Assembly: GCA_028284235.1 (NCBI GenBank)
Contig: JANQSC010000064.1
Coordinates: 1 to 42,696 of the forward strand
Reading direction: 5' to 3'
Source: Opitutaceae bacterium
GTDB taxonomy: Bacteria; Verrucomicrobiota; Verrucomicrobiia; Opitutales; Opitutaceae
DNA: 42,696 nt
Numbering within the stretch: the stretch's first letter is position 1; each line of letters opens with the position of its first letter. The notes beneath the pieces were generated by a model that was given only the letters and a program-made list of their open reading frames with translations, was not told the origin of the DNA and did not search any database. Below, one piece after another: positions 4,006-35,885 of this stretch. Position numbers and translations under genes: made by a program.

Positions 4006-4086
4006 CGTAGGGCCAGCGCTCGCGCTGTGCCGCGTGAGTAAGGTTTTGATCTGAATACGCGGCGCAGCGCAAGCGCTGGCCCTACG
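4006..4086. repeat. REP-like inverted pair, copy A
   Basis: Two 29-nt arms (4006-4034 and 4058-4086) are reverse complements with two mismatches, separated by 23 nt. Each arm begins (reading inward) with a GTAG head followed by its own hairpin, GGC-CAGCGC-TY-GCGCTG-n-GCC. This is the organisation of bacterial REP/BIME elements (conserved GTAG or GTGG tetranucleotide plus imperfect hairpin). The pair lies between the surA-like gene and radC. Copies B (7757-7836) and C (35718-35811) belong to the same family. Confidence 0.85.
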
Positions 4087-4287
4087 AGCTACCGAAACTC
4101 TCCCCAATTTCTGCTTGCTCCCAATCCACTACAAACGGATTCTAAATCCAGAATCCACACGCGAGTAACCAGGATCTGAATCCTTCCTGCGACTCGCTTT
4201 TCTCCTCTGGGAGAACATCCAGAATCCAACTCTTACTCACCGGTCGACCGTCGGCGATCCCGCGCCCGTCGCAAACCGGCCCCATCG
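4087..4287. other. Intergenic remainder before radC, short imperfect repeats only
   Basis: No gene is supported between REP copy A and radC. A small hairpin is visible (7-bp arms GGATTCT at 4137-4143 and AGAATCC at 4150-4156). The 12-mer ATCCAGAATCCA occurs twice in this stretch. No convincing promoter or terminator was found. Confidence 0.5.
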
Positions 4288-4995
4288 ATGCCTGCAAAAT
4301 CCAAACTCATCGGAATCGCCGCCAGCGAACAACCGCAAGAACGACTTGAACGACTGGGAGCCCACGCCCTCAGCGACGCCGAACTCATTGCCATGATCCT
4401 GCGCAGCGGGAGTAAAGGCTTCAACGTGCTCGACGTCGCCTCGCAGCTTCTCGCTCAATCGGGATCGCTCGCCCAGCTCATTACTTGGAAAGACAGCCAG
4501 TTTCGCGACATCAAAGGCATCGGAAAAGTCAAAGCCTTGCAACTAGTCGCTGTAGTGGAAATTGGGCGACGCATTCTCGCTTCGGAGCACGCGGAGCTCC
4601 CCATCGCGGATACGCCCGAAAAAGTGCATCAATTCATGAAGCCGCGATCGATCGGACTCGAAGTCGAGAAGTTCTGGACACTTTGTCTCAACCGGAAAAA
4701 CCGAGTCGTCAAACTATGCGAGACCACCTCGGGAACCGCCAGCAGCAGTCTCGTGCACCCTCGAGAGGTATTTAAAGAAGCGATACGCTACAGCGCCAGC
4801 GCTGTAATTTGCGCTCACAATCACCCCAGCGGCGACCCCAGCCCCAGCGCGGCCGACATAAAAATCACCCGCCAACTCCGCGAAGCCTCCAAAATCGTCG
4901 GCGTCCCCATCCTCGACCACATCATCCTCGGCAACTCCAACGCCGATCCCCTCAACGTCGGCTGGTACAGCTTCGAAGAACATGGGATGCTGTGA
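4288..4995 (+). CDS. radC: RadC family JAB/MPN-domain protein
   Basis: This 235-residue protein has the standard RadC (UPF0758) layout. An N-terminal helix-hairpin-helix region with IKGIGKVKA at 75-83 is followed by a C-terminal JAB/MPN metalloprotease-like domain. The metal-binding JAMM motif is intact: H177-N-H179-P-S-G, then D190. Despite the name, a role of RadC in DNA repair is not firmly established, and the real substrate is unknown. The ATG at 4288 aligns with normal RadC N termini and has no recognisable Shine-Dalgarno sequence. It follows a 309-nt intergenic stretch carrying REP copy A. The FkbM gene downstream differs in base composition, so an operon is unlikely. Confidence 0.95.
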   Translation: MPAKSKLIGIAASEQPQERLERLGAHALSDAELIAMILRSGSKGFNVLDVASQLLAQSGSLAQLITWKDSQFRDIKGIGKVKALQLVAVVEIGRRILASEHAELPIADTPEKVHQFMKPRSIGLEVEKFWTLCLNRKNRVVKLCETTSGTASSSLVHPREVFKEAIRYSASAVICAHNHPSGDPSPSAADIKITRQLREASKIVGVPILDHIILGNSNADPLNVGWYSFEEHGML

Positions 4996-5242
4996 ACCAA
5001 GCAACTTGTTGAATCAGAGAATTCACCCGTAGTTCAGATTGAGTCGAGAACTTCACTACGGATGGCAACCCCTTCGGAATCGGTTCTGCAATTGAGAGAA
5101 CCACCCAGCCGACCACAAACAACGGCACGGCCCACATGAAGATTTCACGCGATCTTGATTCTTGCGATTGCCGTATCGATCCTACATTAAATCTCGCAGA
5201 CTCATCAAGAGTCTCGCATCAATCGAATCTTGTAGTTGAATT

Positions 5243-6250
5243 ATGGGGCACGTATCGAATTTCTCGGGATCATCGAATCCGTATGTTCATGTTCACTCAA
5301 GGTGGCCCGACAATTGGAAGTCGTACCTCAATGAACATCGTGCCGACCTACCCGATCTCATTAGAGGATTGAAGAACGGGCTCGATCAAGAAAGCGTCCT
5401 GCTTGTAGACAAAGTGCTGGAACTGCATCAGCGGATACTAGTGCCTAACGCCTACCAAAAGGACGTAAAGTACTCTGAGCAGCTTTTGTACAGCGCGTCA
5501 GATCTGCTCATTCGCGACCAAGTCGCTGCCGCGATCCTCGACGCCAAGCAGAAATACCGTCTGCCGATAGACAAATACGAAGAGACCGTATTCTTCTATC
5601 TTTGCGGATTGTATTTCCTTCGAGAGATCGTCGACCTTCACGCATTCTTGAAAGGCAAGATCATTATCGATGGCGGTGGGTTCATTGGGGATTCCGCCCT
5701 CATATTTAACGAATTGGATTGCCACAAGATAATCGTATTCGAACCAGATCCTAGGAATCTTGATCTCCTCGAGAAATCGCTCGATCAAAATCGAATAGAC
5801 AGGGAGAAAGTAATTGTCGAAAGGACCGGACTTGGATCTCGAGACAAAATTGATCGACTCATTCAAAACAAATCCGGGTCGAGCTTCTACGACGAGGAAG
5901 AGTGGTCGCGCAGTTTTTCCAGCGTAGAAGTTCCTGTGGTGAAACTCGATACATATATCTCGGAGTCCAGTGTTTCTAGCCCTCAAATTGGACTCATTAA
6001 AATGGACATCCAAGGCCTTGAGCTGGAGGCTGTAGAAGGGGCATTAAAAGCGATTGAACGAGATCGTCCACTATTGGCGATTTCGGTTTACCACACAGCT
6101 AAGGACTTTTTCGGAGTCAAAGCCCTCATCGACGAGAAAGTCGGTGGCTATCGGTTTCGTATCCGAAAAACAAATCCGTTTCACCCAATCCATGAACTAA
6201 TGCTCATTGGATATCCGGATGAGTTGAACGACGACCCACCCGCAACATGA
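5243..6250 (+). CDS. FkbM family SAM-dependent methyltransferase
   Basis: This 335-residue protein has a C-terminal FkbM-type methyltransferase domain. Visible are the SAM-binding strand-loop IIDGGGFIGDSALIF (about 141-155), the acidic end of strand 2 in VFEPDP (165-170), and the family segment KMDIQGLELEAVEGA (about residue 253). The N-terminal ~135 residues are not recognised. FkbM enzymes O-methylate sugars, glycans or secondary metabolites; the substrate here cannot be told, and no glycan or polyketide genes are nearby. Codon use is visibly more A/T-rich than in flanking genes, and the gene stands alone between radC and tRNA-Tyr, suggesting horizontal acquisition. The ATG at 5243 is the most likely start. 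The 247 nt upstream hold only a weak 7-bp inverted repeat. Confidence 0.85.
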   Translation: MGHVSNFSGSSNPYVHVHSRWPDNWKSYLNEHRADLPDLIRGLKNGLDQESVLLVDKVLELHQRILVPNAYQKDVKYSEQLLYSASDLLIRDQVAAAILDAKQKYRLPIDKYEETVFFYLCGLYFLREIVDLHAFLKGKIIIDGGGFIGDSALIFNELDCHKIIVFEPDPRNLDLLEKSLDQNRIDREKVIVERTGLGSRDKIDRLIQNKSGSSFYDEEEWSRSFSSVEVPVVKLDTYISESSVSSPQIGLIKMDIQGLELEAVEGALKAIERDRPLLAISVYHTAKDFFGVKALIDEKVGGYRFRIRKTNPFHPIHELMLIGYPDELNDDPPAT

Positions 6251-6298
6251 TACGATTTGCAGCGCCGTCGCAGTCAGCCTCGCTCCGTCAAACCTTGC

Positions 6299-6316
6299 GG
6301 TTCAAATCCTGTTCCT
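6299..6316 (+). repeat. Inverted partial copy of the tRNA-Tyr 3' end
   Basis: This 18-nt stretch reads GGTTCAAATCCTGTTCCT. It matches the T-loop, T-arm and start of the 3' acceptor strand of the neighbouring tRNA-Tyr (complement of 6387-6404) with one mismatch. The orientation is opposite to the tRNA, so the two form an inverted repeat with about 70 nt between them. It may be a remnant of a second tRNA or of a rearranged insertion site, or it may be chance. Confidence 0.55.
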
Positions 6317-6379
6317 GCGGAAAACGCTTTCCTCGCGGACAGTTGCCTGAAACCGGCTTCCGTTTCTCCCGTGGAAAAG

Positions 6380-6465
6380 TGGTGGTAGGAACAGGATTCG
6401 AACCTGTGTAGGGTTTCCCCAGGAGATTTACAGTCTCCCCTCGTTGGCCACTTGAGTATCCTACC
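6380..6465 (-). tRNA. tRNA-Tyr (anticodon GTA), CCA encoded
   Basis: Read on the minus strand, the gene starts at 6465 with acceptor arm GGTAGGA, pairing with TCCTACC (complement of 6384-6390), then discriminator A and an encoded CCA (6382-6380). The anticodon arm is GGAGA-CTGTAAA-TCTCC, giving anticodon GTA. It is followed by a long variable arm typical of bacterial class II tRNA-Tyr and a normal T-arm with GGTTCGAATCC. The total length is 86 nt. Because the wobble base is G34 in a GUN anticodon, this tRNA is expected to be a queuosine-modification substrate. queA lies divergently, 130 nt away. Confidence 0.97.
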
Positions 6466-6595
6466 AGAGCCAGTAAAAGGCCGCATAGAGTTGGACTTTT
6501 GCCACAAAGATCAAGGGCTTTTTTACGAAAAATCCGTACGCGCCCAATAAGCGCTCGACACGGCTTTCCCCTTGGGAACACTGCCGGTCTTTCCA

Positions 6596-7729
6596 ATGGA
6601 CACCGCCTTGTTCGACTATCATTTGCCCGCCGACCGGATCGCCCAGCAGCCGCCTGCCAATCGAGGCGATTCCCGGCTCCTTGTAGTCGATCGAGCCACC
6701 CAGTCCATCGAACATCACGACTTCCGCGACCTGCCCGAATTTCTCGCCCCGACCGACTCCCTCTTCCGTAACACTGCCAAAGTCCTCCCCGCTCGTCTCT
6801 TCGCCCAACGCCCCACCGGCGGCCGCGTCGAATGCCTCCTCCTCCGCCCCGTCCCACCTACAACAGCCGAGAAATTCAATCCTCACTCTTCAGAATTCAC
6901 CCTTCATTCCTCGCTTCGCGAGGAATGGTGGTGTTTGCTCAAGCCGGGCAAGAAACTCCCCGTCGGCTCGACCTTCGGTCTCGAAGGGACCTTCACCGCT
7001 GCGGTGATGGAAAAGAACGACCAAGCCGAGTACCGGGTCGCCTTCGCACTTCCTGAAGGCGAAACGGTGAGCCAGCTCGCCGAGAAACACGGCAAAATGC
7101 CCCTACCGCCCTATATTCGGCGGGAAACGGACGACGCCCGCGATCCCAGCGATCGGCGACGCTATCAAACCGTCTACGCCCAAGAAGGCCGGCCCGTCGC
7201 CGCCGCGGCCCCGACAGCCGGGCTTCACTTCACCGAAGCCCTCACGAGCGAGCTCGATTCGAAGGGCGTCCAATTCCACGATCTCACTCTTCACGTGGGC
7301 ATGGGCACCTTCAAGCCCCTCGGCGAAGGCGACGTCGAAACGCACGAGATTCACCGGGAAATCTACGAGATCCCCGTCTCTACCCAGTCCGCCCTTTATT
7401 CCGCTCCCGAAACCGGCCGGCGACGCGTCTGCATCGGTACCACCAGCGTCCGCAGCGTCGAGGACTTTTTGGGCAAAGCCAGCAGACCCGGAACTAAGCC
7501 GTTCATCGACGAGGCCGGCCTCTTCCTCTACCCGCCATGCGACTTCCAAGGAGTCGACGCCCTCATCACCAACTTCCACCTCCCCAAATCCACGCTTCTC
7601 TGCCTCGTCTCCGCGTTTCTCTCGCCTGGAAAAGTCGACGGAATCGATTGGCTGAAAACGATTTACAAAGAAGCAATCGACCGCGGGTACCGATTTTTGA
7701 GCTATGGAGACGCGATGTTGATTGTGTGA
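6596..7729 (+). CDS. queA: S-adenosylmethionine:tRNA ribosyltransferase-isomerase QueA, with in-frame insertion
   Basis: QueA transfers and isomerises the ribosyl part of SAM onto preQ1 at G34 of tRNAs with GUN anticodons, forming epoxyqueuosine. Family hallmarks are present: NTAKVLPARLF near the N terminus, MPLPPYI, YQTVYAQ, AAPTAGLHFT, LHVGMGTFKP, GTTSVRS, TNFHLPKSTL and the terminal YRFLSYGDAML. The ATG at 6596 (MDTALFDYHLP) aligns with family starts and is preferred to an upstream TTG at 6572. The protein has 377 residues against about 350 in the family. The excess is explained by about 22 extra codons (6860-6925) between RPVP and WWCLLKPG, an A/T-richer stretch ending in a perfect 10-bp hairpin. 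The frame is unbroken, so the gene is probably functional. Confidence 0.95.
   Translation: MDTALFDYHLPADRIAQQPPANRGDSRLLVVDRATQSIEHHDFRDLPEFLAPTDSLFRNTAKVLPARLFAQRPTGGRVECLLLRPVPPTTAEKFNPHSSEFTLHSSLREEWWCLLKPGKKLPVGSTFGLEGTFTAAVMEKNDQAEYRVAFALPEGETVSQLAEKHGKMPLPPYIRRETDDARDPSDRRRYQTVYAQEGRPVAAAAPTAGLHFTEALTSELDSKGVQFHDLTLHVGMGTFKPLGEGDVETHEIHREIYEIPVSTQSALYSAPETGRRRVCIGTTSVRSVEDFLGKASRPGTKPFIDEAGLFLYPPCDFQGVDALITNFHLPKSTLLCLVSAFLSPGKVDGIDWLKTIYKEAIDRGYRFLSYGDAMLIV
6905..6927. repeat. Perfect hairpin inside queA coding sequence
   Basis: Ten-base arms CATTCCTCGC and GCGAGGAATG flank a 3-nt TTC loop with no mismatch. The hairpin lies at the end of the apparent 66-nt in-frame insertion in queA (6860-6925). 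Confidence 0.8.
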
Positions 7730-7756
7730 GAATAGCGACTGAACTCATAGGAAACT

Positions 7757-7836
7757 GTGGGGCCTTCGCTTGCGAAGCGCCGCGTAGGTTCAATTCTAAG
7801 CCACATTCGCGGCGTGGCGCAAGCGCCAGCCCTACC
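7757..7836. repeat. REP-like inverted pair, copy B
   Basis: The left arm 7757-7784 has a GTGG head and inner stem CTTCGC-TT-GCGAAG. The right arm 7808-7836 (minus strand) has a GTAG head and inner stem TGGCGC-TT-GCGCCA. Outer GGC/GCC bases and the trailing CGCG match copy A. The inner stems differ from copy A but stay perfectly paired. The pair lies between queA and the TPR gene. Confidence 0.82.
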
Positions 7837-7935
7837 ACTCCACATCCACCAAAATAAGCCGGGTTAACTAGACAATTCTTGAACGTTCGCCTACCGTTCT
7901 CGTCAGAACACGGCAGGGCTCCGCGTTCCTCCTAT

Positions 7936-8313
7936 ATGACTGATTCAGACGAGATCAAAACCGCGATCGAAGACGCTACTTTCGACTTCACCATGGGCGA
8001 CAGCTCCTTGGCCGTTTCCAAGCTGGAAACGCTCCTCGAAACGGCTCCCGAGAGCTTTGGCGGCTGGCACGCGCTATGCGAGATCCACTACTCGGAAAAA
8101 CGCTACCCGGAAGCCCTCGCCGCTGCGGAAAAAGCCCACGCGCTTCAGCCCGACGATCTCTTTATCAATACCAGCCTCTCCCGCATCTGGCTCGAGCTCG
8201 GCTCGAAGGAAAAAGCCGAACACTTCGGCGCCCAGGCTAAAATCGCCGGCTGGAAAGAGGAGCTCAAGAATCCCGGCGCTGCCAAAACCCAGGGCGATCT
8301 CAGCTCAACGTGA
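7936..8313 (+). CDS. Small TPR-repeat protein
   Basis: This 125-residue protein carries about two tetratricopeptide-like helical repeats. The pattern is seen in AVSKLETLLETAPESFGGWHALCEIHYSEKRY and in PEALAAAEKAHALQPDD followed by ISTSLSRIW-like spacing (the sequence reads INTSLSRIW). No signal peptide or membrane segment is seen, so it is probably cytoplasmic. TPR proteins act as protein-interaction scaffolds; the partner is unknown. The ATG at 7936 (MTDSDEIKT) is preferred to an in-frame TTG at 7879, whose extension is basic and unlike a TPR protein. It is followed 79 nt later by accA on the same strand. Confidence 0.75.
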   Translation: MTDSDEIKTAIEDATFDFTMGDSSLAVSKLETLLETAPESFGGWHALCEIHYSEKRYPEALAAAEKAHALQPDDLFINTSLSRIWLELGSKEKAEHFGAQAKIAGWKEELKNPGAAKTQGDLSST

Positions 8314-8392
8314 CCGGAATTCGGCCGTTTCATTTAGCCTCGACTTTCACTTTCCCACACTCATATTCCGCCCCCTTTTACGCATCAGGCCT

Positions 8393-9388
8393 ATGGACAT
8401 GAAATATGCTCTCGACTTTGAAAAGCCGCTTCGCGGTCTGATTAAGCAGCTGGACGCGCTTCACCAGCTGTCCGAAGAAAACCACATCGACGTCTCCAGC
8501 GAGATCAAGGCGATCGAAGACAAGATCGAAAAGACCAAGCGCTCGATCTACTCCAACCTTTCCTCCTGGCAGCGAGTCCAGCTCGCCCGCCACCCGCTCC
8601 GCCCCTACTCGCTCGACTACGTCAACGCCCTCTTCGAGGACTTCCAGGAGCTGCACGGCGACCGGCAATTTCGCGACGACAAGTCCATCCTGGGCGGCAC
8701 CGCCTTTTTCAACGGCCAGCCGGTCATGATCATCGCCCAGCAAAAGGGCCGCAACACGAAGGAGAACATCCTCCGAAATTTCGGCATGCCCAATCCGGAA
8801 GGATACCGTAAAGCCTTGCGCCTCATGAAGATGGCCGAAAAGTTCGGTCTCCCCATCGTGACTTGGGTCGACACTCCCGGCGCCTATCCGGGCGTGGGAT
8901 CCGAAGAGCGCCATGTCGCCGAGGCCATCGCCGTCAATATTCGCGAAATGAGCCGCATGACCGTGCCCATCATCACCGTCGTCGTGGGCGAAGGCGGGTC
9001 CGGCGGCGCGCTGGGCATTGCCGTGGCCGACCGCGTTCTCATCCTCGAAAACGCGTACTACTCTGTCATTTCCCCCGAAAGCTGCTCCGCCATCCTCTGG
9101 AAGGACCGTTCGCAAGCGTCGAAAGCCGCTCAAGCGCTCCGACTGGGCGACCAGGAGCTGCTCAAAAAACTCGGCGTCGTCGACGACATCGTCGAGGAAC
9201 CCATGGGCGGCGCCCAAAACAATCCCGAAGAGGCCGCCGAAGCCGTCGGCGAGGTACTGGCGAAGCGACTAGCCGAATTGCGCAAGCTGTCACCTGAAAA
9301 GCTGCTCGACCAGCGTTACGCCCGATTCCGGACTTTGGGCGAGATCGACGACGGTAAAATCATCGACATGAGCGAGGCCGCCTCCTAA
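8393..9388 (+). CDS. accA: Acetyl-CoA carboxylase carboxyltransferase subunit alpha
   Basis: AccA forms, with AccD, the carboxyltransferase that moves CO2 from carboxybiotin to acetyl-CoA, giving malonyl-CoA for fatty acid synthesis. The 331-residue protein matches the family's usual length of about 320. An N-terminal helical region (FEKPLRGLIKQLDAL) is followed by a crotonase-fold core with ELHGDRQFRDD, GGTAFFNGQPVMIIAQQKGR, PGAYPGVGSEERHVAEAIA, GEGGSGGALGIAVADRV and SPESCSAILWKD. The start is ATG at 8393 or a second ATG at 8399. The open frame upstream overlaps the TPR gene and is not part of accA. accD is not in the window. A 9-bp tandem array fills the 40-nt gap to the acetolactate synthase gene. 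Confidence 0.97.
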   Translation: MDMKYALDFEKPLRGLIKQLDALHQLSEENHIDVSSEIKAIEDKIEKTKRSIYSNLSSWQRVQLARHPLRPYSLDYVNALFEDFQELHGDRQFRDDKSILGGTAFFNGQPVMIIAQQKGRNTKENILRNFGMPNPEGYRKALRLMKMAEKFGLPIVTWVDTPGAYPGVGSEERHVAEAIAVNIREMSRMTVPIITVVVGEGGSGGALGIAVADRVLILENAYYSVISPESCSAILWKDRSQASKAAQALRLGDQELLKKLGVVDDIVEEPMGGAQNNPEEAAEAVGEVLAKRLAELRKLSPEKLLDQRYARFRTLGEIDDGKIIDMSEAAS

Positions 9389-9396
9389 GCCATAAG

Positions 9397-9423
9397 TCCT
9401 ATACGTCCCATAAGACCTATAAA
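9397..9423. repeat. 9-bp tandem array, copy 1
   Basis: Three consecutive 9-mers occupy the accA-acetolactate synthase gap: TCCTATACG, TCCCATAAG and ACCTATAAA. A partial unit precedes them. The consensus is about WCCTATAMG. A second array with the same unit is at 30966-31001. Confidence 0.7.
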
Positions 9424-9428
9424 ACCAG

Positions 9429-11195
9429 ATGAGCACGAAAACCGATCTTGAAAAGCCTCCCGCCAGCACCGCCGAAATGAACGGAGCCGACATCCTCGTC
9501 GAATCTCTGATTCGGGAAGGAGTCACCGACATCTTCGCCTACCCGGGCGGCGCCTCGATGGAGATGCACCAGTCGCTGGCCAAAGCCAAGGACCGCATCC
9601 GCACCATTCTGCCCCGCCACGAGCAAGGCGGCTCCTTCGCGGCCGAAGGCTACGCCCGCGCGTCCGGCCGACCCGGTGTTTGCATGGCCACCAGCGGCCC
9701 CGGAGCGACCAACCTCATGACCGCCATCGCCGACGCCTACATGGACAGCACCCCGATCGTCTGCATCACCGGCCAGGTCTACTCCAAATTTATCGGCAAA
9801 GCCGCCTTCCAGGAAACCGACTTCTTCGGCATGACCCTTCCCGTCGTCAAGCACAGCTACTTGGTGATGGATATCAACGACCTCGCCTACACCGTGAAGG
9901 AAGCCTTCAAGGTCGCCACTTCCGGTCGGCCCGGCCCCGTAGTCATCGACATTCCGAAAGACGTGCAGCAAAACAAAATCGTCCCAGATTGGCCGGGCGA
10001 GATCGTTCTGCGCGACTCAAAGATGCCGTCCTTCGCCAGCGACAAGGATCTCACCAACATCCTCCATCTCGTCGAAGAAGCCAAACGCCCCATGGTGTAC
10101 TACGGCGGCGGCATCGTATCCGCGGAGGCATACACCGAGCTGCGGGCGTTTATCGAGAAGACGGGAGTTCCCTGTTCTTCCACCTTGATGGGTGTCGGCG
10201 CCTTTCCGGAAACGCACGAGCTTTCCACCAAGTGGTTCGGAATGCACGGATCGGCCTACGGAAACCTCGCCGTACACAATTGCGACCTCCTGCTCGCGTT
10301 TGGCGTCCGTTTCGACGACCGCATTACCGGTGACGTATCCAAATTCGCCCCACAAGCGGAAATCGTCCACCTCGACGTCGACGCTTCCGAGCACAACAAG
10401 AACAAGATCGTCCACCACCCGATCGTCGGCGAAATCCGCCAGGCCCTCGGACGCATGGTCGAGCTCACGGCGCAAATCGACTTCAAGAAGCCCGACCTCT
10501 CCGCTTGGGTCGATCAGATCAATGCCTGGAAAAAGGAGTTTCCCTTTTCCTACGAAGACAGCCCGCACATTCTCGGACAGGAGGCGATTCGCGTTCTGCA
10601 TGAGCTGACCGACGGCGAAGCCATCATCACTACGGGCGTTGGGCAGCATCAAATGTGGGCGGCCCAATATTACGATTTCGCCTATCCGCGTCACCACATC
10701 TCCTCGCTCGGACTCGGCTCCATGGGCTACGGCTATCCCTCCGCCCTCGGAGCCAAGGTGGCATGCCCCGACAAGCAAGTCGTTGATATTGATGGAGATG
10801 GATCGTTCGTCATGAACGTGCAAGAACTCGCAACGGCCAAGATCGAGAAGATTGCCGCCAAAGCGCTCATCCTCAACAACCAGCACCTCGGCATGGTGAT
10901 GCAATGGGAAGACCGCTTCTACGATAGCGTCCGCGGCAACACCATTCTCGGCGACGAGAACAATATCGGCTCTCCCGAAAACCTCGACGGGCTGTATCCA
11001 AATTATGTGGAAATCGCCAACGGCTTCGGACTCCCGGCCCGCCGCGTTCACAAAAGGTCGGAACTGCGCGACGCCATCCAAGAGATGCTCGACAGCGACG
11101 AGGCCTTCGTCCTCGACGTGATCACACCGTACAGCGAGCACGTGCTGCCGATGATTCCCGCAGGCAAATCGGTCGATCAGATGATCGTCAAATAG
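9429..11195 (+). CDS. ilvB: Acetolactate synthase large (catalytic) subunit
   Basis: This ThDP enzyme condenses pyruvate with pyruvate or 2-oxobutyrate, the first common step of branched-chain amino acid synthesis. The 588-residue protein shows the three-domain layout. The N-terminal ThDP-pyrimidine domain has [15 protein letters not shown] (with the catalytic Glu region), [15 protein letters not shown] and [16 protein letters not shown]. The central FAD-type domain has [11 protein letters not shown]. The C-terminal domain has the ThDP-Mg motif [15 protein letters not shown], continuing to LNNQHLGMV. The ATG at 9429 has no clear Shine-Dalgarno. The regulatory small subunit (ilvN/ilvH) is not directly downstream; a LacI-type gene follows after 218 nt. 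Paralogous ThDP carboligases cannot be fully excluded, but the motifs fit IlvB/IlvI best. Confidence 0.93.
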
Positions 11196-11413
11196 AGCGA
11201 CCAACGAAAACTCGCTTACTTGTGTCCGCTCGGAGATCGGACGCTACCTCTCTTGAGATCGCTACTTGGTAGCGGCTCGTTCGACTAGCGTTCATCCTCG
11301 CCTGGTAGACGGTCGATGCCGTCGAGAGCCGGAAAGGACACAGTCTCAAATTAGTCTCGCCGTTGTCCACGACATTCACACTGTTCAGTATTCGATTTCT
11401 CGCCTGAAGAGAC

Positions 11414-12478: not shown

Positions 12479-12557
12479 TGGTATCCAGTTTGCGCGAACA
12501 ACACTCAGCCGAAACGTCGAACGAGATTCTCGAACGCGAGACGAAACGCTCGCCATG

Positions 12558-13815: not shown

Positions 13816-14003
13816 GCACTATTTTGAGCGTTCCGCAGAGTGAAAATGAACACTTTTCATTATTTCTCACTAGTTTGCTAAATTTATTGAATATAGGCGC
13901 ATCTTTTGCTGACGTCGTAGCCCGTTCCTAAATGGCACCTATGCTCCTGGAAGGCGCAAATCACTTTCGGGAAAAACTAAACCCTAAAAAAACGACAACA
14001 ATT

Positions 14004-15029: not shown

Positions 15030-15057
15030 ACGGAAACCGGATCAATCCTTTCAACAG

Positions 15058-15088: not shown

Positions 15089-15104
15089 GCGCGTCTCGAT
15101 TGCG

Positions 15105-15179: not shown

Positions 15180-15255
15180 CTTTTTGAGAGAGTGCGGTCA
15201 AATTGCAGCCCCTGATCAGAGCCGCAGCGTACCGAAAGACCCTTTTAGGCTCTGC

Positions 15256-26474: not shown

Positions 26475-26549
26475 GATTGAAACGTTTGGTTTTCGAAAAA
26501 AGCGAAACAGCCGCCCAAAGGAGGCGGCCATTGAAAAAGTTGAATAGGT

Positions 26550-26867: not shown

Positions 26868-26927
26868 CGAGTGGTGCGTAAAGGTTTGCTTTGTACGGTT
26901 TCTTGAAAAAAGAAGTTGGCTACTCAA

Positions 26928-26971
26928 TCCAGCCGCATTTCAAAAAGCAAGCGCAGAAGGATGCGGCTGGA
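26928..26971. repeat. Inverted repeat in the yajC-speA divergent region
   Basis: Perfect 11-bp arms TCCAGCCGCAT (26928-26938) and ATGCGGCTGGA (26961-26971) flank 22 nt. The element lies 61-104 nt upstream of the yajC start and 62-106 nt upstream of the speA start. It could be an operator or a transcribed hairpin. Confidence 0.6.
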
Positions 26972-27033
26972 ACAAAATCGACACGTTCCCGATTGAGGGT
27001 TAATCGGACCTAACTCCTTCACTGCCAACCGCC

Positions 27034-28998
27034 TTGAACGCTCAAAAACGCAAACGCTGGACCGTCGCCGACTCGACGCGCCTCTACGGGCTCGATCGCT
27101 GGGGCGAATCCCACTTCCGCATCGACAGCGACGGCTTCCTCTGCGTCCATCCGGCCGCCGACGAACGATCCGTGCGACTCGTCGACGTCGTGAACGAAGC
27201 TGCCAGCAAAGGGCTGAAAGCCCCCATCGTCATTCGCTTCCAAGATATTCTACGCCAACGCGTTGAGCGCCTCAACCACGCTTTCCAACAATCGATCGCG
27301 GAAGAAGCCTACCCCGGTCGCTACCAGGGCGTTTTCCCCATCAAGGTAAACCAGCTCCGCGAAGTCATCGAAGAGATTCAAGACGCCGGCAAACCCTTCC
27401 AATACGGTCTTGAGTGCGGCAGCAAACCCGAGCTGCTCATCGCCTTAGCCATGCACAACGATCCCGAGCAACTCCTCGTCTGCAACGGCTACAAAGACGA
27501 CGAGTATATCCGTCTCGCCTTGTTCGGAGTGAAAATCGGCAAGCCCGTCATCATCGTCGCCGAGCAACTTTCAGAACTCAAAACCATCATCGCCATCAGC
27601 CAAGAGCTCGAGATCGACCCTATCATCGGCTTCCGGGCCAAACTCTACGCCCGCGGCGAAGGGAAATGGGCACTCTCCTCCGGCGACAAAGCCAAGTTCG
27701 GCCTGACTACGACCGAGATGCTCGAAGGCGCCGCCCTGCTCGAGGAAGCCGGCTTGCAAGCGTCCCTCCAGCTCCTCCACTTCCACATCGGCTCCCAAGT
27801 CCCCAATATCATCACTCTCAAAAACGCGGTCATCGAAGGGGCCCGCTTCTACTGCCAACTCCAGAAAATGGGATTTCCCATGGGCTACCTCGACGTCGGC
27901 GGCGGTCTCGGCATCGACTACGACGGGTCGCGCTCGAACTGGGAAAGCTCCACCAACTACGCCCTCGAGGAATACGCCCGCGACGTCGTGTTCAGCATCA
28001 AGCAAATCTGCGAGGCGAGCGACGTCCCCTGCCCTCACATCGTGTCCGAAAGCGGTCGCGCCATCACCGCCCCGCACAGCATACTTGTCACCCAAGTGGT
28101 CGACCGCATTTCGATCCGCGAAACGTCATTCACCGTGAAAAAGGAGGACATCAAAGACGCGGTCGTCCAGGACTTGTACGAAATGGCCAACGGACGCGTC
28201 CGCTACGGGCGGCTAGAGAAATTTCACGACGCCCTGCAAAAGAAAGAAGAAGCGTATTCGCTTTTCAATCACGGCTATCTCGACTTGAAAGGCCGCGCCC
28301 AAGCGGAGACCCTCTTCTGGCAAATCTGCGGCAAGCTCGACAAGCGAGCGAGCAACGGCGGCTACACGCCCGAGGAACTCGTCCAACTCAAGCAGTTGCT
28401 TGCCGATCAATACGTTTGCAACTTTTCCGTTTTCCAGTCCTTGCTCGACCACTGGGCCTTGGACCAGCTCTTTCCCGTCGCCCCGCTCACTCGTCACAAC
28501 GAACGCCCGACGATCAACGCCACGCTCGTCGACATCACTTGCGACAGCGATGGGAAGGTCTCCAAGTTCATCGATCTGGAAGACGAAAAGGAATACCTCC
28601 CGCTGCATCCCATCAAGAAAAGCGAATCCTACTTTCTCGGCTTCTTCCTCATCGGCGCCTACCAGGACATCATGGGCGACAACCACAATCTCTTCGGCCG
28701 CGTCAATGAAGCCCACGTCTTTCTCGAGGACGACGAAGACGACGGTTTCTACATTGAAGACACGCTCAAAGGCGATCGCGTCAAAGACGTGCTGGAAGGT
28801 GTCCAGTTCAAGTCCGACATGCTCTGCCGGCTGATGAAAAGGCAGATCGACCAAGCCATAAAACAAAACCGCGTAAAACCTCGTCAAGGCGTCCGTTTCA
28901 TGGAAATGTACGAAGCGAGCATGCAGAAGAAAACCTACATGGAACTGCCCGACCATACCAAGCGCGCCGCCAAGCGAACGCCGCGCGGCGGGCGGTAG
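27034..28998 (+). CDS. speA: Biosynthetic arginine decarboxylase
   Basis: SpeA is a PLP enzyme that converts arginine to agmatine, the first step of one polyamine route. The 654-residue length fits the biosynthetic fold-III family (about 630-660). The N-terminal STRLYGLDRWGESHFRID matches the family. The PLP-binding Lys is K104 in VFPIKVNQ. Further motifs are HFHIGSQVP and LDVGGGLGIDYDGS in the alanine-racemase-like barrel, then SESGRAITAPHS. The start appears to be TTG at 27034: no ATG or GTG lies near the expected N terminus. The DCC-family gene follows 28 nt later, but no agmatinase or agmatine deiminase gene is in the window. Confidence 0.95.
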   Translation: MNAQKRKRWTVADSTRLYGLDRWGESHFRIDSDGFLCVHPAADERSVRLVDVVNEAASKGLKAPIVIRFQDILRQRVERLNHAFQQSIAEEAYPGRYQGVFPIKVNQLREVIEEIQDAGKPFQYGLECGSKPELLIALAMHNDPEQLLVCNGYKDDEYIRLALFGVKIGKPVIIVAEQLSELKTIIAISQELEIDPIIGFRAKLYARGEGKWALSSGDKAKFGLTTTEMLEGAALLEEAGLQASLQLLHFHIGSQVPNIITLKNAVIEGARFYCQLQKMGFPMGYLDVGGGLGIDYDGSRSNWESSTNYALEEYARDVVFSIKQICEASDVPCPHIVSESGRAITAPHSILVTQVVDRISIRETSFTVKKEDIKDAVVQDLYEMANGRVRYGRLEKFHDALQKKEEAYSLFNHGYLDLKGRAQAETLFWQICGKLDKRASNGGYTPEELVQLKQLLADQYVCNFSVFQSLLDHWALDQLFPVAPLTRHNERPTINATLVDITCDSDGKVSKFIDLEDEKEYLPLHPIKKSESYFLGFFLIGAYQDIMGDNHNLFGRVNEAHVFLEDDEDDGFYIEDTLKGDRVKDVLEGVQFKSDMLCRLMKRQIDQAIKQNRVKPRQGVRFMEMYEASMQKKTYMELPDHTKRAAKRTPRGGR

Positions 28999-29026
28999 GC
29001 TCCGCTGCGATCGCGGCTCTTTAACA

Positions 29027-29431
29027 ATGCGCCCACTCACCCACATCGTTTTTTACGACGGCGAATGCGGTTTTTGCGACACATCCGTGCGGCAGATCAT
29101 GAGCATCGACAAAAGCAAAACCCTGCGGTACGCGCCGCTGCAAGGAACGACCGCCGTCGCCGCGCTTCCCGCTTCCATGCGCGACCCCTCCGAATTGAAG
29201 ACGATCGTCTACTTGGACCGCGAAGGCGCGCTCTTCACCAAGTCCGAGGCGGTGATCGAGATCCTTAAACGCGTAGGCGGCTTCTGGAAGACCTTCCGGA
29301 TTTTCCGCATCCTTCCGATCGGATTCCGCGACTGGTTCTACGATCGAGTTGCCGAGCGGAGACGCTCCCTTATCGACAAAGCCTCCTGCCCGCTCCCCAC
29401 TCCGGATCAACAAGCGCGAATCCTGCCCTAG
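29027..29431 (+). CDS. DCC-family (DUF393) thiol-disulfide oxidoreductase-like protein
   Basis: This 134-residue protein carries the family signature near its N terminus, FYDGECGFCD (9-18), with the CxxC pair C14 and C17 after DGE. A LRYAPLQ region and the conserved acidic SEAVIEIL-type segment of the DCC family follow. DCC proteins have a thioredoxin-like fold and are annotated as putative thiol-disulfide oxidoreductases; their partners are poorly known. No signal peptide is seen. It starts 28 nt after speA and is probably cotranscribed with it. The ATG at 29027 has no Shine-Dalgarno. Confidence 0.88.
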   Translation: MRPLTHIVFYDGECGFCDTSVRQIMSIDKSKTLRYAPLQGTTAVAALPASMRDPSELKTIVYLDREGALFTKSEAVIEILKRVGGFWKTFRIFRILPIGFRDWFYDRVAERRRSLIDKASCPLPTPDQQARILP

Positions 29432-29569
29432 TCGCGACGAACGCCCGATTGCCAGCGGTTTGCGCGATTGTAACACCCCTTCCAACCCCGGCGGTCCACT
29501 TCCCAAATGCTCGCTTGCGTTTCGTTTTTCAACCGTCATAAGAAGCAGCCTTTTCCTTCGGGACTCTAG

Positions 29570-30889
<1,320 letters not shown>

Positions 30890-30910
30890 GCGCAACGTCA
30901 CTACACTTTC

Positions 30911-30942
30911 AAAGCCCGCGACCTCGGTTGTGGGCTTTTTTT
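30911..30942 (+). terminator. Intrinsic terminator of eno
   Basis: A stem from AAAGCCC and GGGCTTT is extended inward by further pairs including two G-T pairs, with a very small loop (30911-30923 with 30926-30938). A T run to 30942 follows. It begins 22 nt after the eno stop. Confidence 0.85.
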
Positions 30943-30965
30943 GCGACCGGCCAGCTCGAGATAAG

Positions 30966-31001
30966 ACCTATACGTCCTATAGGACCTATAAGTCCTATCC
31001 C
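30966..31001. repeat. 9-bp tandem array, copy 2
   Basis: Four consecutive 9-mers, ACCTATACG, TCCTATAGG, ACCTATAAG and TCCTATCCC, follow a partial unit ATAAG. They lie directly beside the 3' end of the GntP gene (31004) after the eno terminator. The unit is the same as in the array at 9397-9423. Confidence 0.75.
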
Positions 31002-31003
31002 AG

Positions 31004-32416
31004 CTACCCGAAAAGATTCGGCGCGATCGCCGAGACAATCAGCACCTCGATCAACCCCACTACTCCCATAAACGCGAGCAAGGCCGTCCAGGTTTTGAGC
31101 GTTTCCCGCTCGGTAAAACCGCTCAACTTGCAAACGACCCAGAAACCGCTGTCGTTCATCCAAGAGCCCATTTGTGAGCCGAAGGCAATCGCCGCGAACA
31201 GGTAGATCGGGCTGTACGGGAGATCCGCCCCGTTGCCGATGATTGCGGCGACAATTCCCGAAGTCGTGATCATGGAGACCGTTCCCGAGCCTTGGGCGAC
31301 TTTCAATACCGCCGCCACCAGCCAAGCCATCAGGATGAGCGAGAAACCGGAGTTTTCCGAGACCGCGCTGATCGCATCGCCCACGCCCGCGTGACGGATC
31401 ATTGCCCCGAACGCTCCCCCCGCGGATGTAATTAAAATAATCATACCGGCGGTCCCCAGCGGACCTTCCATGGTGTCTCCGAGCGCTCGGAGGCTGACTC
31501 CCCTCTGTTTGGCCAAAGTCGAAAGGGCGATGAGCGTGCCCAGGAACATGGCGACGTTCTTGTTGCCGAGCACCTGCATCACGTCGTAAAAGGCGCCTTC
31601 CGTGCTCCAAATCCCCAGAAACGATGTCAGCGCTATAAGAAAAACCGGCAGCGCGACGGGGAGCATCGACACGAAAAACGACGGCAATTCGTCGTCCTCC
31701 TTGGACACGATGGCCTCGATGTCCGCGATTTTGATCCCCGGGCTTTCCCGCACTCCGATATCGAGGCGGCCTTCGAGCCATTTGCCGAAGTACAATCCGG
31801 AAAACGCTGGTATCAAGCCGAGCCCTACGCCGGCGATGATGGTGAAACCGAGATTCAAGTTGAGCGTCTCGACCATCACCAAAGGCCCCGGCGTCGGCGG
31901 CACCAAACCATGCGTCACCACGCCGCCACTACAAACCGCCATTACGAAATAAAGGTAGTTTCGCCCCAGCCGAAAGGCCAGCGCCTGAGCGAGCGGGATG
32001 AGTAGAAAGAACACGGTGTCGAAAAATACCGGCACCGACAAAAAGAACGAGCACAGCACTAGAGCGACGCCCGCCCGCTGCTCGCCCAGGGTCCGCACCA
32101 TACCGCGCACGATCCGGTCCGCCGCTCCGCTTTCCATCAAACACACGCCGATGATGGCGGCCAAAGCGATCACCCAAGCGATTTTCCCCGCCGTGGACCC
32201 AAACTCGGTCATCGTCAACCCGATCGCCGTGACGATGTGGTTGGCCCCGTCCGCCCCCGGCAGCGAGGTCGAAAGGGCTCCGACCAAGACCGACGCGAGA
32301 ATCAGCGAGATAAACGCGTGGATCCGAAAAACGGCGATGGCGACAATGACAAACAGAATACCCAGCGCCAGCACGGCAAAGGGCCACGAAGTGGAAGCGA
32401 AAACGAATGGGATCAT
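31004..32416 (-). CDS. GntP family permease (gluconate or related sugar acid)
   Basis: This 470-residue inner-membrane proton symporter of the GntP family has about 12 to 14 hydrophobic segments. Family landmarks include FRIHAFISLILASVLVG near the N terminus, the GSTAGKIAWVIALAAIIG loop, SVPVFFDTVFFLLIPLA, HGLVPPTPGPLVMVE, AQGSGTVSMITTSG, and GSQMGSWMNDSGFWVV. Substrates in the family include gluconate, other aldonates and related hydroxy acids; which applies here is not decided by sequence. It is the last gene of a leftward run with the SGNH hydrolase (34-nt gap) and the Tat oxidoreductase. Confidence 0.93.
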   Translation of the reverse strand: MIPFVFASTSWPFAVLALGILFVIVAIAVFRIHAFISLILASVLVGALSTSLPGADGANHIVTAIGLTMTEFGSTAGKIAWVIALAAIIGVCLMESGAADRIVRGMVRTLGEQRAGVALVLCSFFLSVPVFFDTVFFLLIPLAQALAFRLGRNYLYFVMAVCSGGVVTHGLVPPTPGPLVMVETLNLNLGFTIIAGVGLGLIPAFSGLYFGKWLEGRLDIGVRESPGIKIADIEAIVSKEDDELPSFFVSMLPVALPVFLIALTSFLGIWSTEGAFYDVMQVLGNKNVAMFLGTLIALSTLAKQRGVSLRALGDTMEGPLGTAGMIILITSAGGAFGAMIRHAGVGDAISAVSENSGFSLILMAWLVAAVLKVAQGSGTVSMITTSGIVAAIIGNGADLPYSPIYLFAAIAFGSQMGSWMNDSGFWVVCKLSGFTERETLKTWTALLAFMGVVGLIEVLIVSAIAPNLFG

Positions 32417-32450
32417 GTAATAGGTAAGACGGGGTTAGAGAAGAAAGCCG

Positions 32451-33137
32451 CTATTCTTGAGCAAGCGCTCTTTCTATCTCTGGCCGAATTACCCGCGACC
32501 ACAAGGCATTTCCCGCGTCGCTCAAATGCAGACCGTCATCGGCGAAGAGGCTCGGACTCGGCGGCATTCCCGTCTCCAGCATCGGCGAAGCGATATCCGC
32601 GTAGTACAAGAGCGGCTCGCGCTCGCTGCGCTTCTGGATCCGAAGGTTCACCTCATTCATGTCCGCCCAGAGCGCCGCCCGTTTGATACTCGGCTTGATC
32701 GGGATGTAGACGATACGCGTTTCCGGCAAATGGTAGCGAACCAGGCCCGCGAACGCGCGAAAGTCCCCAAACACCTCGTCCACAGACTTCCCCGCGTTGA
32801 TATCGTTGTCGCCCGCGTAAAACACGATCACGCTCGGCTGGTGAGGCAGAACGACTTGATCGAAAAAGAAGATGCAGTCGGAGATCTGCGAACCGCCGAA
32901 TCCGCGATTGATCGAGTCGATCCCCGCGAATGCTCTAGCCGTGTCCCAGCGCCGAATCGAAGAGCTTCCCAGAAACAGCACCTGTCCCGTGTCCGGCGGA
33001 TTTTCGCGGTCCCTCTCGACGAACGCGGCGATGGCCTCGTCGAAGCGATGCGGATCCGCGACGACACGCTCACCCTGGCCGCGCGCGCTGCCAAGCAGAA
33101 TGCTAAGAACGGCGAAAACGCGGAAAGCGATTCTCAT
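32451..33137 (-). CDS. Exported SGNH/GDSL-type esterase
   Basis: This 228-residue protein has a signal peptide (RIAFRVFAVLSILLGSARG) and an SGNH hydrolase domain. The block I nucleophile motif is FLGSSSIRRW (57-60 GSSS), the block II glycine is in GFGGSQISD, block III is the FYAGDNDIN segment with N111, and block V is DGLHLSDAG (D201, H204). All four catalytic or oxyanion positions are present. Typical substrates are acetyl or other ester groups on sugars and polysaccharides; the one here is unknown. The ATG at 33137 is right for the signal peptide; the upstream open frame is opposite the oxidoreductase and not coding. It starts 17 nt after the Tat oxidoreductase stop, so cotranscription is likely. 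Confidence 0.9.
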   Translation of the reverse strand: MRIAFRVFAVLSILLGSARGQGERVVADPHRFDEAIAAFVERDRENPPDTGQVLFLGSSSIRRWDTARAFAGIDSINRGFGGSQISDCIFFFDQVVLPHQPSVIVFYAGDNDINAGKSVDEVFGDFRAFAGLVRYHLPETRIVYIPIKPSIKRAALWADMNEVNLRIQKRSEREPLLYYADIASPMLETGMPPSPSLFADDGLHLSDAGNALWSRVIRPEIERALAQE

Positions 33138-33154
33138 CGGCGACAGTCGTTCCA

Positions 33155-34573
33155 CTAGCTCCGATAATACTCTTCCCAGCCCTTGCGCGGCTTCGGGTTT
33201 ATGTACTTGTTGAGCGATCGGTGGTTGGTGACACGCATCCGCTCGGAATCCCACTTGATATCCTTGCCGGTGCGGATCGCCAGCGCCCCGAGCAAAATCA
33301 GCTCGGTCAGGCCTTCCGCGTAGTCGAAGTGGGAACCGGGAGTCGGCCCCTCGCCTTTCACGGCTCGGATCCACTCCTGGATATTCCCGCCCTTGATCCT
33401 CGGGATCGTTTCCGGCGGGCGGTTGCGACGGAATTCCTGCCAAACGTCCTCGTCGAAGAGCCGCGGACTGTTGGGACGCATGCCGGGCGAGTAAAGCGTC
33501 TGCTTGTCGCCGATGAGGCAGATGCCGTCGACGTGCGCCTTTACTTGCTCACTGCCTCCCGCTTTGGCCTGGGCTGCGATTTGGGCGTCCCGGAAATCCT
33601 CGGCGATTTTAGGAACACCTGGGCCTTCGTGCCACGATACTTTTACCGGCGGAAGTCCATTGCGTTCGGGAAAGTGATACGTTACGACACTTCCGCTCGG
33701 CGTGTAGACGAGGTTTCGCTTTCCTTTGAGCGTCACCTCGATCTTCTCTGGGCGGCCGAGTTGCAGCGCCCAATACGGAATGTCGATGGTGTGGCAGCCA
33801 ATATCGCCCAATCCGCCGCAACCGTAGTCCCACCAGCCGCGCCAGAAGGCGGGATGCAGATCCTCGCTGAACGGAGTCATGCGAGCCGGGCCGATCCACT
33901 TGTCCCAATCCATCCCCGGCGGCACCGGCTGGCCCTCGGGGAGTTTGAAACGCTCGCCCGGTCGAAATCCAAATCCTTTGTCCGGCCGATTGGTCCACGC
34001 AATCACTTCGCGAACATTCCCCAGGACGCCCGCGTCGAACCACTCTTTAATCAGGCGCATGCCGTCGAAGGCCCGACCTTGGTTGCCCATTTGCGTCACG
34101 AGCTTGTTCTGGCGCGTTTTCTCGCAAAGCGTCCGAAGCTCGTAAATACTGTGCACCAGCGGTTTCTGGACAAACAGGTGTTTTCCCAAATCCGCCGCCG
34201 CCATGGAGGCGACAAAGTGCGTGTTGTCCGGCGTCGCGATTCCGACTGCGTCAATCTCGTCGCCCATCGTGTCGAGCATGACTCGGTAGTCGGTGAATCC
34301 GCGCGCATTTGGGAACTTCTCTTTAGTTTTGGCGATCGCCGCCGGATCCACGTCGCAAACAGCGACAATGTTCTCGCGGGACATCTGGGTGAGGTTGCCG
34401 CGGCCTTGGCCGCCCACGCCGATAAACGCGATATTCAACTTGCTGTTGGCAGAAGGACCCGACTGCCCGATGGCAAACCGGGGTAGAACAAAGGCGCCGC
34501 CGGCGACGAGCGAAGAAGTTTTCAGAAAATTCCGGCGAGAGCCCGATCGGCTTGGTTTTTGAAGGTTTTTCAT
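33155..34573 (-). CDS. Tat-exported Gfo/Idh/MocA family oxidoreductase (3)
   Basis: This 472-residue protein has a twin-arginine signal (SRRNFLK at 12-18, then TSSLVAGGAFVLPRFAIG). Next come the Rossmann loop IAFIGVGGQGRGNL, DAVGIATPDNTHFVAS, and KHLFVQKPL with the EKP-like Lys. The long C-terminal domain has the CGGLGDIGCHTIDIPYW segment common in the exported Gfo/Idh/MocA group of Planctomycetes and Verrucomicrobia. It probably folds with its nicotinamide cofactor before export to the periplasm. The substrate is unknown; neighbours suggest a sugar acid or acylated sugar. The start at 34573 (MKNLQK) is preferred to an upstream start 6 codons away. It is first in its operon. Confidence 0.93.
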   Translation of the reverse strand: MKNLQKPSRSGSRRNFLKTSSLVAGGAFVLPRFAIGQSGPSANSKLNIAFIGVGGQGRGNLTQMSRENIVAVCDVDPAAIAKTKEKFPNARGFTDYRVMLDTMGDEIDAVGIATPDNTHFVASMAAADLGKHLFVQKPLVHSIYELRTLCEKTRQNKLVTQMGNQGRAFDGMRLIKEWFDAGVLGNVREVIAWTNRPDKGFGFRPGERFKLPEGQPVPPGMDWDKWIGPARMTPFSEDLHPAFWRGWWDYGCGGLGDIGCHTIDIPYWALQLGRPEKIEVTLKGKRNLVYTPSGSVVTYHFPERNGLPPVKVSWHEGPGVPKIAEDFRDAQIAAQAKAGGSEQVKAHVDGICLIGDKQTLYSPGMRPNSPRLFDEDVWQEFRRNRPPETIPRIKGGNIQEWIRAVKGEGPTPGSHFDYAEGLTELILLGALAIRTGKDIKWDSERMRVTNHRSLNKYINPKPRKGWEEYYRS

Positions 34574-34761
34574 AGGGATTCTAAATAACACGGATCATCC
34601 GCCGCGAAACACGTCTCCGACTCAATCAATTTATGGGGTTTGAACGGAATGTGTTAGAAAAAGAACCATCACGACCATCACAACCGCTGTCAATTTCCAA
34701 GACCGGCGAGAAATTGGTATAGATCTCGACAACGAGAAAACACCCTCTAGCGTCCCGCTCT

Positions 34762-35625
34762 ATGAAATCGAATCCGATTCTCGCTCTTCTTTCCGCTATC
34801 GTCGCGCTTGCCCTCGTGGGCGGCTGCTCCCAATCCGAGCCCTCCGCTCCCATAACGACGATGTCATTCAATATTCGATACGGGCTCGCCAAAGACGGCG
34901 ACAACCATTGGGACAAGCGCAAGCCGCTCGTTTTCGACGTCTTCGCCGACCATGCCCCCGAAATCGTCGGATTGCAGGAAGCCCTCGACTTCCAGATCGA
35001 CGCGATACTCGAAGCCCATCCCCAATACGACTACGTCGGCATCGGCAGAGAGCCGGACGACACGGGCGAACACACCGCCATACTTTTCCTAAAGGATGCC
35101 TACGAAGTGCTCCAGGAAAACACGTTCTGGCTTTCCGACACGCCCGAAACGCCTTCGACGAGTTGGGGCAACCAATTGCTGCGCATCTACACTTACGCCC
35201 TCTTGCAACGGCGCTCCGACGGTTTGCAGTTCTACGTCTACAACACGCACTTCGACCATCGATCCGAGCCCTCGCGGCAACAAAGCGCCCGCTTCCTCAG
35301 GGATCGCATCGTCAACCGGACGCACACGGACGCTCCCTTCGTCCTCATGGGCGACTTTAACGCCGGCGAGGACAGCGTTCCGATAAAAACACTGCTCGGT
35401 GAAAGCGGTGACGCGCCAATGGTAGACACCTTCCGCGTCCTCCATCCCGACGCCGTGGACGTTGGTACGGGCACACGCTGGATTGGAAAAGTCGACGGAA
35501 ACAAAATCGACTACATCTTCGTCGCCACCGACACCGAAGTCCTCGAAGCGGAAATTGTCCACGACAACGACAACGGCCGCTATCCCTCCGACCATTACCC
35601 GGTGAAAGCGACAATCCGCTTTTAA
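34762..35625 (+). CDS. Lipoprotein of the endonuclease/exonuclease/phosphatase (EEP) family
   Basis: This 287-residue protein starts with a lipoprotein signal (ILALLSAIVALALVGGC, lipobox Cys22). The mature part is an EEP domain: TMSFNIRYG, IVGLQEAL, the YNTHFDH segment, FVLMGDFNAGEDS, and the terminal SDHYPVKATI with the catalytic His. Members hydrolyse phosphodiesters, including DNA, sphingomyelin and phosphoinositides; secreted bacterial ones often lack a known substrate. It is divergent from the Tat oxidoreductase and followed by the composite palindrome region. Confidence 0.93.
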   Translation: MKSNPILALLSAIVALALVGGCSQSEPSAPITTMSFNIRYGLAKDGDNHWDKRKPLVFDVFADHAPEIVGLQEALDFQIDAILEAHPQYDYVGIGREPDDTGEHTAILFLKDAYEVLQENTFWLSDTPETPSTSWGNQLLRIYTYALLQRRSDGLQFYVYNTHFDHRSEPSRQQSARFLRDRIVNRTHTDAPFVLMGDFNAGEDSVPIKTLLGESGDAPMVDTFRVLHPDAVDVGTGTRWIGKVDGNKIDYIFVATDTEVLEAEIVHDNDNGRYPSDHYPVKATIRF

Positions 35626-35654
35626 CAAAAACAGGAATCGGTCAGATTTTATTT

Positions 35655-35885
35655 TAACAGGATGCGGTCGCCCGCGCTGCGAGCTCCCTCGCTTGATGCT
35701 GAGAAAAACAAGTCACTCGTAGGGCCAGCGCTTGCGCTGCGCCGCGTATCCCAAGAATTCAAGTACAGCTGCTACAGCACATTCGCGGCACGGCGCAAGC
35801 GCCGGCCCTACTGCCTAGACATCAAGTTCCCGTCCTCAAAGGGACGGGATCAAGTGAGTCCCGCCGAGCGGGACGCATCCTGTTA
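35655..35885. repeat. Composite nested palindrome with 12-bp terminal inverted repeats, containing REP copy C
   Basis: Perfect 12-bp ends TAACAGGATGCG (35655-35666) and CGCATCCTGTTA (35874-35885) enclose 207 nt. Inside are a GCGAG/CTCGC hairpin at the left, REP copy C (arms 35718-35746 and 35784-35811; GTAG heads, inner stems CAGCGC-TT-GCGCTG and CGGCGC-TT-GCGCCG), and near the right end two perfect 7-bp hairpins (CCCGTCC/GGACGGG and GTCCCGC/GCGGGAC). There is no coding sequence. The layout resembles a mosaic MITE-like element, or a BIME inserted into a larger palindrome. Confidence 0.8.

Follow-up and report, generated by a model that had tools for sequence, protein, structure and literature searches.

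Three inverted pairs of hairpins in a 42,696-nucleotide stretch of an Opitutaceae genome (contig JANQSC010000064.1, here C6; the whole stretch is called the window) are, with high confidence, copies of a REPIN or BIME (repetitive extragenic palindrome doublet forming hairpins; bacterial interspersed mosaic element). The family to which they belong numbers at least 242 repetitive extragenic palindromic (REP) units in this genome. Its predicted cognate enzyme is a REP-associated tyrosine transposase (RAYT) on contig C17, which would move the pairs in the form of single-stranded DNA (ssDNA). The element is clearly of a known kind, a REPIN/BIME family with its REPtron, and what is new is this member of it.

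Window hairpin pairs and their unit

The arms and spacers of the three pairs are located in the window as follows.

4007..4034, plus strand, REP arm of pair 1, stem CAGCGC/GCGCTG, loop TC, unpaired T
4035..4057, pair 1 spacer, 23 nt
4058..4085, minus strand, REP arm of pair 1, stem CAGCGC/GCGCTG, loop TT, unpaired C
7757..7784, plus strand, REP arm of pair 2 with GTGG head, stem CTTCGC/GCGAAG
7785..7807, pair 2 spacer, 23 nt
7808..7835, minus strand, REP arm of pair 2, stem TGGCGC/GCGCCA
35719..35746, plus strand, REP arm of pair 3, stem CAGCGC/GCGCTG
35747..35783, pair 3 spacer, 37 nt
35784..35811, minus strand, REP arm of pair 3, stem CGGCGC/GCGCCG

All six arms are copies of a single 28-nt unit and form three inverted pairs whose GTRG heads point outward. 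Read 5' to 3', the unit opens with GTRG and GGC and continues with six inner-stem bases, variable but for a final CGC, a loop of two bases, the six bases that complement the inner stem, a single unpaired base, GCC and GCG; we wrote it as a pattern comprising GTRG, the hairpin GGC-YNNCGC-NN-GCGNNR-Y-GCC and a GCG tail. The head is GTAG in five arms and GTGG in the arm at 7757, and the outer GGC/GCC is kept in all six. This is the arrangement that a preliminary description of the window had reported, and it stood up to a control in which the pattern, with up to three mismatches allowed, matched six times in the window and never in 100 dinucleotide shuffles. The same description had reported perfectly paired inner stems and a 2-nt loop. 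The inner stems are indeed perfectly paired in 6/6 arms, but it missed that the stem is interrupted, on the 3' side between inner and outer stem, by an unpaired base that is C or T in every window arm. The loop reads TT in five arms and TC in one, but a four-base loop was predicted when three single arms were folded as ssDNA. A search of the window with a covariance model recovered the same six arms at 42–51 bits, with the next match at 8.8 bits; since most of the window arm sequences are among the 59 distinct units used to build the model, this recovery is a consistency check.

All three window pairs are intergenic. Pairs 1 and 2 follow gene ends closely, one lying 28 bp past a peptidyl-prolyl isomerase (PPIase) gene and the other 27 bp past a queuosine-synthesis gene, and pair 3 is placed between convergent genes for an endonuclease/phosphatase-family protein (93 bp away) and a carbohydrate phosphorylase (97 bp away).

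Genome-wide copies and pairing

The preliminary description had proposed a genome-wide count, with about ten copies as its limit. Exact matches to the pattern in the 6.13-Mb genome (81 contigs) numbered 124 + 118 = 242, and the reversed pattern gave none. Copy-level statistics cover the 239 of these 242 matches that were enumerated by three sub-patterns. These 239 copies are spread over 58 contigs; 232 have a perfect Watson–Crick inner stem and 202 a TT loop, the main stems being TGGCGC (80 copies), CTTCGC (75, plus three with one G–T pair), CGGCGC (42) and CAGCGC (31).

Head-outward pairs, 79 in number, account for 158/239 copies, with a gap of 22–24 nt between the arms in 59 of them, and no other pair orientation was found among the 239 copies at distances below 300 bp. 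The remaining 81 copies have no exact partner. The 90 fetched loci gave 59 distinct places; the partner was exact in 36 of these, carried one to six mismatches in 12 and was absent in 11, four of which are cut off by a contig end; the worst mismatched partners are long-loop variants or wreckage. A covariance search of the genome, which scored 150 of 8,989 candidates and whose matches number at least 150, included at least nine decayed arms, seven of them being partners of copies that had been classed as single. The head left free in the pattern was GTAG in 97/98 arms and GTGG in one, counts that are biased, since these loci were fetched by the pattern itself. For 41 partner arms that had not been chosen by the exact pattern, head and outer GGC/GCC were GTAG and intact in 41/41, the tail was GCG in 37 and GCA in four, and the inner stem was perfect in 37. 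The unpaired base in these arms was a pyrimidine in 38/41 (T 22, C 16, A 2, G 1).

Stems are not combined at random within pairs. When partners were shuffled, 18.3 CTT/TGG and 3.3 CAG/CGG pairs were expected, against 34 and 10 observed. We considered a general preference for unlike stems and rejected it: like-stem pairs occurred 18 times versus 21.1 expected, so that only particular combinations are in excess. These combinations fit a pair that is inherited as a unit.

We also observed long-loop variants of the CTT unit, one in four copies (L137–L140) and a second at two further places (L105 and L117). Their loop is partly self-complementary and lies between the CTTCGC and GCGAAG halves, and the partner is a TGGCGC unit in each of the six. 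In addition, REP copies stand at several contig starts (C5:1, C15:3, C33:13, C40:3, C42:4, C53:21 and C68:22), as if the assembly broke there.

A predicted cognate RAYT between two pairs of the same hairpin

The preliminary description had read the hairpins as REP elements of a RAYT-type system whose enzyme, if any, is encoded outside the window, and had suggested a search for a Y1 transposase flanked by the same hairpin. Both expectations were borne out: no Y1 transposase match was found on C6, and a RAYT gene on C17 (L034 4070–4651; 193 aa, with a TTG start in the mechanical open reading frame (ORF) list) is situated between two REP pairs, at L034 3976–4056 and 4648–4723, each within ~100 bp. 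Each arm of the downstream pair is one base off the pattern, and the stop codon of the gene is the TAG of the downstream GTAG. The protein matched NF047646 (REP-associated tyrosine transposase) at 82.0 bits, with a cut-off of 80, and PF01797 at 31.9, with a cut-off of 23. Identity as an IS200/IS605 insertion sequence was rejected, as NF033573 gave 21.7 bits, below its cut-off of 55. PF01797 has three matches in the genome, on C17, C75 and C81, and a further one, on C49, came from the RAYT protein search.

Aligned to PDB 4er8, E. coli TnpA_REP (E=4.7e-5), the C17 protein has identical residues at both HUH histidines, the catalytic Tyr, N119, W94, Q95, E100, H101 and R104, with 39 residues following the aligned stretch; these E. 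coli-type group 2 features were compared by residues rather than by a tree with reference groups. The W94–R104 region is described in excerpts of PMC6006769 as recognising GTAG, the role of W94 being called unclear. From its sequence and position, the 193-aa C17 RAYT (TnpA_REP, Y1-HUH) is the predicted cognate enzyme.

Covariation and folding

Selection on structure rather than sequence had been proposed earlier, together with a check for covariation among copies. We used 59 distinct units, of which 29 are from this genome and the rest from relatives, among the matches listed. Stem cells paired in 97.4%, compared with a shuffled mean of 86.0% that rose to the observed value in 0/500 shuffles, and with 22.6–50.8% when partners were slid; the covariation score was 0.319 versus 0.107 in shuffles. 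Three of the nine stem pairs change on both sides, one of them restricted to Y and R by the search pattern. The other six are invariant and uninformative because the search pattern fixed their columns. Two of five covariation measures were not clearly above shuffles, namely the number of both-side changes (3 vs 2.6) and further pair types (10 vs 8.7). The proposed covariation check thus came out in favour, though four stems make up 228/239 copies, so that there are fewer independent events behind the covariation than the number of copies would imply. Among 31 distinct stems, 12 are perfectly Watson–Crick; imperfect pairing is frequent in the rare stems, most of which come from relatives. In DNA folding, the whole window pairs were far more stable than shuffles (z of −8.8, −4.8 and −6.2).

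RAYTs and hairpins in related genomes

The exact hairpin pattern was present in 15 of 115 genomes: every one of the 11 genus members, three further genomes from the family and one from the order. Within the genus the copy counts are 242 (this genome), 86, 54, 10, 6 and 5, with five genomes having one copy; outside it, they are 18, 5 and 1 in the family and 1 in the order. RAYT-like proteins were matched in 64/115 genomes.

We then focused on the best 30 loci returned by the protein search, our own included, among which L062 and L063 look near-identical. Both HUH histidines and N119 are conserved in 30/30 sequences and the catalytic Tyr in 28/30. Within 250 bp of the RAYT ORF, GTAG/GTGG hairpins numbered 74 (4.41 per kb, at 23/30 loci), versus four beyond 400 bp (0.064 per kb, at three loci). 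The hairpin rule was loosened once, a stricter first scan having given 9/30 loci, and the controls apply to the looser rule alone: equal windows at the locus ends contained hairpins in two loci, and each of 20 base-shuffled versions of the near windows gave 0–2. A GTAGGG stop ends 7/30 RAYT genes (L046, L047, L050, L055, L056, L062 and L063), and five of these seven sites pass the hairpin test, L055 and L056 failing it. REPs beside related RAYTs are mostly of other sequence than the REP of this genome. The class beside the RAYTs at L047 and L051, for instance, has 11 and 72 copies in their own genomes and none in four others, including this one.

Separately, we noted GTAGGA-type REPs, e.g. GTAGGAGCCTGCTTGCAGGCGAT, at L144 and L145 in same-genus genomes, and REPs of this type adjoin RAYT genes at L064, L065, L067, L073 and L168. 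With two unpaired bases after GTAG and a GAT tail, they resemble the GTAG-1 class of Pseudomonas. The residue at the E100 position is D in 4/4 loci with GTAGGA-type REPs and either E (12) or D (7) in 19 other hairpin loci; as the loci are few and related, we did not use this as evidence.

Insertion sites and flanks

For one window locus, the gene pair around pair 3 was sought in 10 other genus members. In nine of them both genes are present with no own-type REP (at up to five mismatches) between the matched parts; in G007, one of these genomes, a pair of a different REP type occupies that position. The exception is G004, whose locus gave no match to the left gene and holds two own-type REPs with heads inward. 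Since the own-type pair is absent from the orthologous site in 9/10 genomes, pair 3 is probably a recent arrival in this genome, as judged from the aligned sites.

The sole strong signal in the outer flanks, over 95 distinct contexts, is the base before GTAG (C 63%, T 31%; 0.75 bits). A fixed-position outer CT, the E. coli cleavage dinucleotide, was not found, no position exceeding 13% of the 95 contexts, and CT occurred within 10 nt in 47/95. Inside the element, the 5–8 bases after GCG have a weak consensus that differs by stem.

Pair 3 also lies between two inverted arms of a second dispersed repeat (window 35655–35675, plus strand, and about 35820–35893). This repeat, TAACAGGATGCG-N5-CCGC, has 59 matches genome-wide with up to two mismatches, versus two for the control, and pieces recur on C2, C11, C63, C79 and C80. 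By eye, 3/59 sites of the AACAGGATGCG repeat lie about 100 bp or less from one of the enumerated REPs, an observation from which we draw no conclusion.

Alternative explanations

The pairs could be RNA signals selected by the host, such as transcription terminators or stabilisers of mRNA 3' ends, that spread by helping expression, with the RAYT incidental. The position of 3/3 window pairs just past gene ends (27, 28 and 93/97 bp) and the mostly TT loops in GC-rich stems agree with such signals. However, exact copies range from 1 to 242 within the genus, and terminators needed by the host would not be expected to vary so; moreover, it leaves unexplained why the pairs are exactly head-outward, why they have a GTRG head and where the RAYT is located. 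We consider this account very unlikely, and host use of pairs after insertion possible. Segmental duplication of an intergenic block without mobilisation could account for one other place, on C29, which aligns to pair 3 and part of the neighbouring AACAGGATGCG repeat at 73%. Against it, the outer flanks carry at most 0.23 bits beyond the base before GTAG in the 95 contexts, the spacers keep their length more than their sequence, and the copies are scattered over 58 contigs. A single duplicated block, which the preliminary description had named among the findings that would undo its reading, thus fails as an explanation, and we regard duplication as next to negligible.

The C17 RAYT might also stand between two pairs by chance, the real enzyme being another Y1 protein, since Y1_Tnp-like genes are found on C49, C75 and C81 as well. 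In the sequence read around these loci (L169, L002 and L003, respectively), no REP of this family adjoins the gene, whereas two pairs stand no more than about 100 bp from the C17 gene and one of them overlaps its stop codon, which makes another enzyme extremely improbable. Several points do weigh against a REPIN family mobilised by the C17 RAYT. The C75 protein reached 73.8 bits for NF047646, just short of the cut-off of 80. G004 and G005, with 54 and 86 copies, yielded no close RAYT, the best matches being a contig-start fragment (44–45%) and others at 28–33%, with no own-type REPs in the stretches read; these assemblies are fragmented into 460 and 810 contigs. The exact junction of pair 3 is unreadable because its flanks are too diverged, and it is a single locus. 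Finally, three single arms folded as ssDNA were no more stable than dinucleotide shuffles (z of −0.8 to −1.1); as single arms are matched by their GC-rich shuffles, it is covariation and copy number, rather than energy, that support the single hairpin.

Comparison with known systems and proposed mechanism

REPINs of Pseudomonas fluorescens are described in excerpts of PMC3116915 as doublets of inverted REPs whose spacer is less conserved and for which a long hairpin is predicted, the doublet being the presumed mobile unit, with a RAYT nearby and singlets as decayed remnants. The inverted doublet as presumed mobile unit, variable spacer, predicted long hairpin, nearby RAYT and singlet remnants are common to both systems, so far as those excerpts go, whereas the stem sequences differ and the unpaired pyrimidine and GCG tail are found here. 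For the GTAG families of Di Nocera et al (2013), the portions of PMC3733652 used here report complementary stem subfamilies, head-outward and unlike-stem dimers, a short loop, TAG stops derived from GTAG and REPtrons with a RAYT nearby, and describe the verrucomicrobial O. terrae as rich in such families. Head, loop, stem variants, dimers, TAG stops and RAYT agree with ours, the 24 families being compared by description only. According to part of PMC8266576, E. coli TnpA_REP needs GTAG and an irregular stem, and SELEX (systematic evolution of ligands by exponential enrichment) gave a C/T mixture at the bulged 3'-side base. On the same partial basis, the likeness to the C17 system lies in the HUH motif, Tyr, N119, the W-Q-(4)-E-H-(2)-R stretch and a REP irregularity with a C/T base; the differences are one unpaired base here versus two mismatches there and a weak overall protein similarity (phmmer 26 bits). 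Among open-licence PMC papers, we recognised no publication on this exact hairpin family. At gathering scores, no Rfam family covers the hairpin element, the sole Rfam match in the whole window being a tRNA gene (6383–6465, minus strand, 54.3 bits).

By analogy with E. coli TnpA_REP, we infer that the C17 RAYT moves the pairs by a single-stranded route. The enzyme would bind the hairpin in single-stranded form, by way of its GTAG and its unpaired pyrimidine, and would cleave beside it with its tyrosine. Both arms would then move together, as a single-stranded intermediate, to new intergenic positions. Copies would subsequently drift, with decay of a partner arm leaving 'single' REPs.

More tentatively, and with somewhat less than even confidence, the order may hold a radiation of REPtrons in which RAYTs that are 30–46% identical keep the GTAG head, and often a CTTG-type loop. 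The other half of this proposal, held equally tentatively, is that they may have switched to other stems, changed in whether an unpaired pyrimidine is present, or even switched to the GTAG-GA-stem-GAT design, which is presumably best known from Pseudomonas. If such a radiation is real, natural pairs could allow the specificity between enzyme and hairpin to be traced residue by residue.

Specialists would not find this result surprising. Its contribution is a clear REPIN/RAYT set, together with a natural series of enzyme–hairpin partners in relatives (23/30 RAYT loci). According to PMC8266576, how REPs spread is still to be elucidated; the paper also asks how groups of TnpA_REP recognise their own REPs, a question for which natural RAYT–REP partners are useful material.

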